DNA from: Oscillatoria sp. FACHB-1407
GTDB lineage: Bacteria; Cyanobacteriota; Cyanobacteriia; Elainellales; Elainellaceae
Assembly (NCBI RefSeq): GCF_014697545.1
Contig: NZ_JACJSA010000012.1
Coordinates: 1 to 64,000 of the forward strand
Reading direction: 5' to 3'
Length of the DNA stretch: 64,000 nt
A program made the translations under genes and the position numbers. The notes beneath the pieces were generated by a model. It made no database searches and was not told where the DNA came from. It worked only from the letters and a program-made list of their open reading frames with translations. Shown piece after piece: positions 33,691 to 36,307 of the stretch; within the stretch, counting starts at the first letter, position 1, and each line of letters starts with the position of its first letter.

Positions 33691-33787
33691 CTCAGGTAAC
33701 GATTGACTGCTGACTACTCTCACCGTCGTTTCTTAAACACCAGTGGGTTCTGTGCTCACACGATGCCCGATTAACGCTCTCATTGTT

Positions 33788-34498
33788 ATGACTGATTTAC
33801 GCGATCGCCTCAAGCTTGAACCCCTCAAAACTCAACTATTGCTGATTCAAGAGCTAGCCGATTCAGGAGACTCTGGGCTAGATGTACTGATGGATTTTTT
33901 GCTGGATCAGCGATCAACCCCGGTCACTCCAGCACAAGGCAAAGCCTATCAGGTACTGTTTAATGCCGACCACCCGAAGACAAACGAGTTTCTGCAAACT
34001 CACTTCCCCCAAGGGTTAGTCGCCCTCACGTCAGAACGGGGAATTGACTACGCCCCCTTACAATCCCTCCTGGTGAAACAGGATTTACAAGCCGCTGATA
34101 AACTCACCCTCGAAAAAATGTGTGAGTTAGCAGGCGAGACGGCTCTACAGCGTCGCTGGCTCTATTTCACTGAGGTAGAGCGGTTTCCCATCACAGATTT
34201 ACAAACCATCAACACACTCTGGTTGGTTTACTGCGATGGCAAATTTGGCTTTTCAGTACAACGGGAGTTGTGGATTGGCGTTGGCAAAAATTGGGATCAG
34301 CTCTGGGAGAAGATTGGTTGGCGCAAGGGCAACAGTTGGACTCGATATCCAAACGAGTTCACCTGGGATTTGAGTGCTCCCAGAGGTCATCTTCCCCTGT
34401 CTAATCAGTTACGAGGCGTCAGGGTGTTGGCTGCTCTGCTCAGTCACCCTGCGTGGATCACAAAGGCGATCGCCCCTGTTCAAGCGGGTCAGCCCTAA
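33788..34498 (+). CDS. gun4: GUN4 domain protein, Mg-chelatase activator
   Basis: A 236-aa protein, the usual size of cyanobacterial Gun4. It has an N-terminal helical bundle (about 1-80) and a porphyrin-binding GUN4 domain (about 85-230) with [50 protein letters not shown] and [13 protein letters not shown]. Gun4 binds protoporphyrin IX and stimulates magnesium chelatase in chlorophyll synthesis. I start at ATG 33788; an upstream in-frame GTG at 33743 adds 15 unlikely residues. The 3' end overlaps recR by 4 bases, tail to tail. Confidence 0.93.
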
Positions 34499-35091
34499 TC
34501 CAACTCGCGCCGCCCCTCCAGTGCTCGCGCTAGAGTCACCTCATCGGCATACTCCAGATCACCCCCCATCGGCAACCCAAAGGCAATCCGGGTCACTTTG
34601 GTAAAGGGTTTCAGCAAATGCCCCACATACAACGTGGTTGTGTCTCCCTCCACACTGGGGCTAATCGCCATAATCACTTCCTTCACTTGGGGTTGGCTGA
34701 CCCGTCGTACTAACGGCGAGATATGGAGTTGATCGGGACCAATCCCATCCATTGGCGAAATTAGCCCTCCCAAAACGTGGTACTTGCCCTGAAATTCACG
34801 GGTCTTCTCCAGGGCAATCACATCTTTAGAATCCGCCACTACACAAATCGTGCTCTCGTCGCGGTTGGAAGCACGACAAATCTCGCAAACTGGCTCCGCT
34901 GACAAATGAAAACACGTTGAGCAAAGCCCAACCTGCTGCTTTGCCTCCATTAACGCCTGAGCCAGTGCCTGCACTTCTGTTTCCGGTCGCTTGAGAATAT
35001 GCAGTGCTAATCGTTGGGCACTTTTAGGACCAATGCCAGGTAATCGTTGAAATTGCTCAATTAATCGAGCCAGGGGACGTGTGTAAACCGT
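34495..35091 (-). CDS. recR: Recombination protein RecR, apparently without a normal start codon
   Basis: RecR acts with RecF and RecO in loading RecA at gaps. The reading frame [20 protein letters not shown], helix-hairpin-helix, zinc finger [16 protein letters not shown] (four cysteines) and Toprim domain ([16 protein letters not shown]) is intact and would give the normal 198 residues. The codon where ATG is expected, just before VYTRPL, is ACG (35091-35089). A TGA lies six codons further upstream with no ATG, GTG or TTG between. The first usual start inside is GTG 34974, which would remove the helix-hairpin-helix. It may use the ACG, or the base may be an error or mutation. Confidence 0.85.
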
Positions 35092-35170
35092 TGGAGTGCC
35101 TCCATCAAATGCTCAAAACTCGATCATAGCGGTTGCTGTAGTCACTGGTCAGACATTCAGCCCTAAAACA

Positions 35171-35204
35171 CAAGAGGTGCCCTCCATTTGGAGAACACCT
35201 CTTG
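35171..35204 (-). terminator. psbA terminator
   Basis: A strong hairpin, CAAGAGGTG / CACCTCTTG with further pairing CCTCC / GGAG inside, 21 bases after the psbA stop. On the minus strand TGTTTTAGGG follows. Position and strength fit transcript termination of psbA. Confidence 0.75.
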
Positions 35205-35224: not shown

Positions 35225-36307
35225 TTAGCCGTTGATTTGAGGAGCGGTAAATGCAACTGGAGTTGCTTCACCCGATGCCAAATCGAGGGGGAAGTTGTGA
35301 GCGTTGCGCTCGTGCATTACTTCCATACCCAGGTTGGCGCGGTTCAACACGTCTGCCCAGGTGCTTACCACACGACCTTGAGAATCCAACACTGACTGGT
35401 TGAAGTTGAAACCATTCAGGTTGAACGCCATGGTGCTGATGCCCAAAGCAGTGAACCAGATACAAACCACAGGCCATGCACCCAAGAAGAAGTGCAAGCT
35501 GCGAGAGTTGTTAAAAGATGCATATTGGAAGATCAAACGACCGAAGTAGCCATGCGCTGCAACGATGTTGTAAGTCTCTTCCTCTTGACCAAACTTGTAA
35601 CCATAGTTCTGGGATTCAGTTTCGGTTGTTTCACGAACCAAGGAAGAAGTCACCAGAGAACCGTGCATGGCGGAGAACAAAGAACCACCGAATACACCCG
35701 CTACACCCAACATGTGGAAGGGGTGCATCAGAATGTTGTGCTCAGCCTGGAACACGAACATGAAGTTGAAGGTTCCGGAGATACCCAAAGGCATCCCGTC
35801 AGAGAAAGAACCCTGACCGATGGGGTAGATCAGGAATACAGAAGTTGCAGCGGCCAGAGGAGCGGAGTAAGCAACACAGATCCAAGGGCGCATACCCAAG
35901 CGGTAGCTCAGTTCCCACTGACGACCCATGTAAGCAAAGATGCCGATGAGGAAGTGGAAGCATACCAACTGGTAAGGGCCACCGTTATAGAGCCACTCAT
36001 CGAGGGATGCAGCTTCCCAAATGGGGTAGAGGTGCAAACCAATGGCGTTGGAGGAAGGAACAACAGCACCAGAAATGATGTTGTTGCCATAAAGCAAGGA
36101 GCCAGAAACAGGCTCACGGATGCCATCGATGTCTACAGGAGGTGCAGCAACGAAGGCAATGATGAAGCAAATCGTAGCGGCGAGTAAGGTAGGAATCATC
36201 AACACACCGAACCAACCAACATAAATCCGGTTGTCAGTGCTGGTGACCCAGTTACAAAACCGCTCCCATGCACTTGCGCTTTCGCGACGCTGGAGAGTAG
36301 TTGTCAT
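35225..36307 (-). CDS. psbA: Photosystem II reaction centre protein D1
   Basis: A 360-aa thylakoid membrane protein with five helices, binding P680 chlorophylls, pheophytin, the QB plastoquinone and most of the manganese cluster. Tyr161 and Asp170 ([10 protein letters not shown]), His198-region [14 protein letters not shown], and the C-terminal [14 protein letters not shown] processing site after Ala344 are present. Residue 130 is Gln (AYMGRQWEL), the type found in the standard low-light D1 form rather than the Glu130 high-light form. All key residues look normal. Single gene, with its own promoter and terminator. Confidence 0.98.

Follow-up and report, generated by a model that had tools for sequence, protein, structure and literature searches.

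Probable near-cognate start codons of recR in Oscillatoria sp. FACHB-1407 and much of its class: a likely ACG start behind a strong ribosome site

The recR locus beside described near-cognate starts

Among the closest described systems is sigR of Streptomyces, which in 34 species begins with a near-cognate codon (GTC in 32 and GTT in two) behind a conserved AGGAGGTG site; there the start is repressed by IF3, and putting a canonical codon in its place leads to overproduction (PMC5472188, in the sections drawn on here). The same sections give ATT or ATC as the start of infC, the gene for IF3 itself, in E. coli and Streptomyces, and state that experimental characterisation exists for very few bacterial genes whose starts are non-canonical (PMC5472188). 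The likeness of infC to the gene considered here is a near-cognate start that gates translation; the difference is that infC is autoregulatory. The pcnB gene of E. coli, with an AUU start that is thought to hold its protein at low dosage, is alike in the rarity of its start and differs from recR in codon and function.

The gene compared with these is recR in a 64,000-nucleotide stretch of the genome of Oscillatoria sp. FACHB-1407 (hereafter the window). Its coding frame, read from an ACG, occupies positions 34,495–35,091 on the minus strand (198 codons and a stop) and was identified by TIGR00615 (274.1 bits against a cut-off of 162.55, E = 5.2e-82, profile positions 2–196 of 196) and by the Pfam domains RecR_HhH (PF21176), RecR_ZnF (PF02132), Toprim_4 (PF13662) and RecR_C (PF21175); one recR was found in this genome. 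A preliminary description of the window had placed ACG at the position where other RecR proteins have their methionine, and that is borne out: frame reading and the relatives put the inferred start codon, ACG, at 35,091–35,089, and the order on the minus strand is TGA, GCA TTT GAT GGA GGC ACT CCA, ACG, GTT TAC ACA CGT. The description also put the closing TGA six codons upstream with no usual start between; its second half stands, since ATG, GTG and TTG are all missing from the intervening codons, and its count does not, the in-frame TGA (35,113–35,115) lying eight codons up with seven sense codons between. Inside the frame the first canonical codon (ATG, GTG or TTG) is a GTG at 34,972–34,974, and we agree with the description that a protein begun there, at 34,974, has lost the helix-hairpin-helix (PF21176, residues 8–50 of the full frame); such a protein still passes the recR model cut-off.

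A Shine-Dalgarno site, GGAGG (35,099–35,103, minus strand), stands 7 nt before the ACG with a predicted pairing of −9.3 kcal/mol. Further upstream on the same strand, a promoter-like site scan gave TATGAT (35,123–35,128), the likely −10 element of a promoter of recR's own, with CTGACC 18 nt further up, an arrangement that is weak evidence by itself, one such site being found in 1.1 kb versus 0.7 expected by shuffling. With a promoter-like site ending at 35,123 and GGAGG at 35,103–35,099, the recR leader is expected to be short and to hold one clear ribosome site. A terminator-like hairpin of 15 pairs (35,171–35,204, minus strand) separates recR from the upstream psbA (35,225–36,307, minus strand, Pfam Photo_RC). 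On the other side a GUN4-domain gene (33,743–34,498, plus strand, from Pfam) converges with recR, and the 3′ ends of the two genes overlap by 4 nt (34,495–34,498).

The window recR thus has what infC- and sigR-type starts have, no available canonical codon and a strong Shine-Dalgarno site, and its anatomy is like that of sigR as a whole (own promoter, short leader, strong ribosome site and a start mismatched to the initiator); three recR loci among the relatives pair GTT with AGGAGGTG (L095, L132 and L192). The two differ in gene and phylum and in that sigR uses one codon family, whereas recR appears to use ACG, CTG, ATT and GTT in turn; moreover, the effect of the sigR start has been measured, whereas that of the recR start is predicted.

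Start codons and ribosome sites among the relatives

We collected 230 recR loci: 30 from 60 relatives (the window's own locus included), ten more from 290 members of the class, 80 named records, 80 fetched by coordinates (chosen among the listed matches so as to cover varied genera) and another 30 from distant families. Near the start, 204 of them differ in sequence, and because several of the source lists hold best matches only, this set leans towards the window's kin. A six-frame search found recR in 283 of the 290 genomes. From the upstream stop to the codon aligned with the V of VYTRPLAR there is no ATG, GTG or TTG in 121 of the 204 distinct loci; two others run off their contig, 54 have a canonical codon 0–4 codons up, and 27 have one only at least five codons up (nine at 5–10 codons, 18 further). 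In these last the ribosome site, by eye, usually lies between the far canonical codon and the near-cognate one, and on that ground they were counted as non-canonical, a choice made by judgement. Of the 38 family codes, 19 contain one or more loci without any canonical codon, seven others have only loci in which the canonical codon is distant or the contig ends, and the remaining 12 are purely canonical. Comparison with relatives, which the preliminary description had recommended, therefore finds a non-canonical codon recurring at the recR start; canonical starts are nonetheless present in 54 of the 204 loci and are the rule in 12 of the 38 family codes, so a weak one is not required.

After five loci were reassigned by Shine-Dalgarno spacing (L083, L085, L087, L091 and L103), 150 non-canonical loci divide into 78 with ACG, 34 with ATT or ATC, 20 with GTT or GTC and 18 with CTG, beside 54 canonical loci. 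All 150 have one of these codons at the V codon or one to two codons before it, an assignment that is ambiguous in some loci and, since GTT is also the usual V codon, says little by codon presence alone for the GTT class. ACG stands at the window's codon position in 74 distinct loci, the window's own included; at the V codon, 34 loci have ATT or ATC and others have GTT or GTC. Thirteen non-canonical loci have ACA, ACT or TCA at the window's position; eight of these have CTG one codon earlier, and the remaining five have ACG or ATT beside it. L014, L057 and L134 carry their ACG shifted by one codon into the gene; in the first two a stop precedes it by two codons, and in L134 no canonical codon lies between it and the stop.

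The Shine-Dalgarno spacing is 7 nt, as in the window, in 57 of the 74 loci that have their ACG at the window's codon; 64 of the 74 have a site at 6–8 nt, and the scan found none at that distance in the other ten. Spacing is 6 nt in 9 of 15 GTT/GTC loci. Predicted pairing with the 16S tail is at least as strong as −6 kcal/mol in 136 of the 150 non-canonical loci versus 7 of 53 canonical ones (one canonical locus was dropped for having too little upstream sequence), a difference with a Mann-Whitney p of 4.6e-19 that is not corrected for kinship. Median values are −9.3 kcal/mol for ACG, −9.0 for GTT/GTC, −7.2 for ATT/ATC, −7.15 for CTG and −3.4 for canonical starts. Among other genes of the relatives, the same strength is reached in 7 of 21 recA and 2 of 25 infC loci scored, from 26 of 30 loci given for each. 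Independent pairs on well-supported branches point in this direction (3.1 for the association of site strength with start type and 0.0 against), but at five they are too few for a test. Nine CTG loci of family f2 have no strong site (−5.0 at best). Several f2 leaders (L216–L219 and L222–L226), none with a strong Shine-Dalgarno site, carry a TAGATT/TAAATT-like motif about 24 nt before the CTG. A −10-like hexamer lies 20–60 nt upstream in 80 of the 150 non-canonical loci (24.2 expected from base shuffles) versus 8 of 53 canonical ones.

Outside the class, recR was matched in 36 genomes of the phylum, and all 21 loci examined there are canonical (19 ATG and two GTG); many of these genes lie directly behind a frame that ends like YbaB (a GGINIPGL-type end). 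Within the class, ybaB is just upstream in nine recR loci, and all nine are canonical. The RecR protein of this arrangement is the same as in the window; the difference is that recR there begins with ATG or GTG, and this codon frequently adjoins the upstream stop or overlaps it. Among 128 distinct loci with at least 500 nt of upstream sequence, 121 are not linked to ybaB, 93 of them non-canonical and 28 canonical, so that absence of ybaB does not predict a weak recR start. On a recR tree, counting only these two states gives 19 changes between canonical and non-canonical starts, of which starred branches force at least five; the mean after shuffling is 47.8. Changes among all start types number 40. 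Both counts are rough, since the tree was built from 282 nt and 36 of its 201 inner branches are starred. Such a history could have run from a canonical, ybaB-linked recR ancestor through escape from ybaB to repeated near-cognate starts, with some returns.

Codon invariance, control genes and alternative readings

Does the odd codon behave as a start or as an ordinary codon for threonine or leucine? In a Nostocales-type set of 30 loci, made up of 19 named records together with 11 loci from family code f32 (taken to be the same order), ACG is present in 30 of 30, though the codon after it changes in some (to GCT or CTG), and the one other conserved threonine column available for comparison mixes ACT (25) and ACC (4). 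About 95 codon columns were scanned in these loci; six are invariant, and the ACG is the sole fourfold-degenerate one. One column in family f2 (small genomes that we read as picocyanobacteria) has CTG in nine of ten loci and TTG in the tenth (L195); across the nine CTG loci, 23 other conserved leucine columns are never invariant (their commonest codon does not exceed 67%), and besides the CTG a single codon column, an ATG, is invariant. In both sets, then, the codon is kept beyond the needs of the amino acid, as would be expected of a start and not of a threonine or leucine codon serving its residue alone.

We place the probability that the window recR is translated from its ACG with the strong GGAGG, and that near-cognate starts, mostly accompanied by a strong ribosome site, are used in much of the class outside the ybaB-recR arrangement, at roughly 0.8. 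That the near-cognate codon itself serves as the start is very probable; what the sequences show directly is the start region, how it is conserved, and that it goes with strong ribosome sites and with ybaB absence. The preliminary description's proposal of a non-standard start accordingly gains support from codon invariance, ribosome-site spacing and the control genes below; its further idea, that the ACG keeps RecR low, is plausible by analogy.

Tolerated drift is the rather unlikely, though serious, alternative: a strong Shine-Dalgarno site would make the start codon nearly irrelevant, a trace of RecR would suffice, and near-cognate codons would wander with no regulatory role. The turnover among ACG, CTG, ATT and GTT, and the two counts of change on the tree, are what such drift would produce. 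It fits poorly with the ACG that is invariant in 30 of 30 loci and the CTG kept in nine, where synonymous sites vary, and with canonical codons being only one base away; in a triplet set, moreover, just 2 of 61,358 ancestral AUG starts had switched to CUG (PMC5622118, in the part consulted).

It is improbable that RecR starts elsewhere, whether at the GTT beside the ACG, at an in-frame codon before the Shine-Dalgarno site or at an internal GTG or TTG. The 27 loci with a canonical codon at least five codons upstream could be read in this way, as could the GTT that follows ACG in most ACG loci and is the assigned start in 20 others. However, ACG stays where the codon after it changes (GCT in L159, ATC in L156, CTG in L197), the window has no canonical codon upstream, and its internal ones lie behind the helix-hairpin-helix. 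The first internal canonical codon also scatters from codon 5 to codon 66 in the 121 loci (with none within 90 codons in one of them), and an internal start is rejected on this scatter and on the loss of the helix-hairpin-helix.

Recoding of the start in RNA, or a special initiator tRNA, is very improbable. One C-to-U change would turn both ACG (to AUG) and CTG (to UUG) canonical, and plant plastids do edit ACG starts; the ATT, ATC and GTT starts are left unexplained by it, and we know of no such RNA editing in cyanobacteria. The abstract of PMC12548569 mentions start codons created by editing.

An erroneous base call, a misassembly or a recent mutation would account for a single odd base, and a wrong or mutated base was the other possibility raised in the preliminary description; it is refuted by the relatives, since ACG stands at the same place in 73 further distinct loci, some from named cultured strains of Nostoc, Calothrix and Fischerella, and since that or another non-ATG/GTG/TTG codon is there in many genomes of the class. 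Reads with T in place of C, which the description had named as its refuting result, are now very unlikely. Translation from an out-of-frame ATG followed by a frameshift into recR is equally remote, because such an ATG, though it lies just before the Shine-Dalgarno site in the window and within 45 nt in 43 of 121 loci, is within 25 nt in only 12 of 121, holds no position common to more than four loci and so is not conserved.

A peculiarity of the whole genome is disfavoured by control genes. A canonical in-frame codon is present in the relatives' infC in 29 of 30 loci sampled, which makes recR and not infC the odd gene here, and in recA and ruvB in 30 of 30 each; the latter two are weaker controls than infC, since the recA and ruvB models start deeper in the protein, the nearest canonical codon being more than 20 codons up in 5 of 30 recA and 15 of 30 ruvB loci. 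One draft genome has an apparent one-base frame break after the ATG of infC (L252), which is probably an assembly error. Fifteen of 40 genomes searched, the window's own included, have two or three matches over the infC cut-off (in the window's genome G000, C1:755556-756056, locus L250, and C41:11540-11983), and start-codon fidelity might be affected by a second IF3-like factor.

A comparison of 0.8 Mb from each of two f2 genomes gave 263 gene pairs that could be tested for a canonical codon near the conserved N-terminal edge. Such a codon is missing from one or both genomes for 32 of these genes and from both for 12, among which recR is, on inspection, the only clean case. The other 11 were set aside by eye, as a matter of judgement: three apparent rRNA-region frames, one apparent shadow frame, and others with divergent N-termini or with an ATG or GTG just outside the range. 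A first such comparison (346 pairs, 32 flagged) was set aside: the N-terminal edge it used was too tight, shadow and rRNA-region frames had been kept, and recR went unflagged on account of a TTG far upstream in one of the genomes. As far as these samples reach, infC, recA, ruvB and the f2 comparison indicate that the feature belongs to recR.

RecR dosage and what a weak start would mean

If the window recR starts at its ACG, the initiator fMet-tRNA would read the codon at 35,091–35,089 with one mismatch, the GGAGG 7 nt upstream would place the ribosome there on a short leader from recR's own promoter, and, by analogy with the described systems, IF3 would reject most initiation attempts and so hold RecR low. 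We somewhat favour the view that selection keeps the recR start weak because such a start caps RecR dosage. That IF3 gating sets the amount of RecR is a tentative suggestion, drawn from the same analogy.

All 64 codons have reportedly been measured as starts in E. coli. Non-ATG starts in cyanobacteria are already known: proteogenomics of Nostoc sp. PCC 7120 revised eight genes to ATA or ATT starts, and the part of its main text consulted mentions neither recR nor ACG (PMC8557916). No paper on the recR start codon was recognised among the matches listed from the open-access literature, judged by titles and abstract openings.

Gene finders limited to ATG, GTG and TTG would shorten recR, with loss of the helix-hairpin-helix, or miss it. 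A comparative study reports recR as absent from Cylindrospermum stagnale PCC 7417, Cyanobacterium aponinum PCC 10605 and C. epipsammum PCC 9333, and leaves recR out of its proposed core repair set (PMC5101192, in the sections cited). These three absences may be annotation misses caused by the start codon.

A repair gene that, over a large part of a class, appears to use near-cognate starts of four kinds offers natural replicates for the trade-off between start codon and ribosome site. It is possible, and we advance it with reserve, that recR is gated by start-codon fidelity in much of the class: near-cognate codons, taken up repeatedly where recR stands apart from ybaB, would be tuned against Shine-Dalgarno strength, RecFOR-dependent loading of RecA would answer to IF3 activity or to the state of the ribosome, and ACG would be a normal bacterial start for recR.
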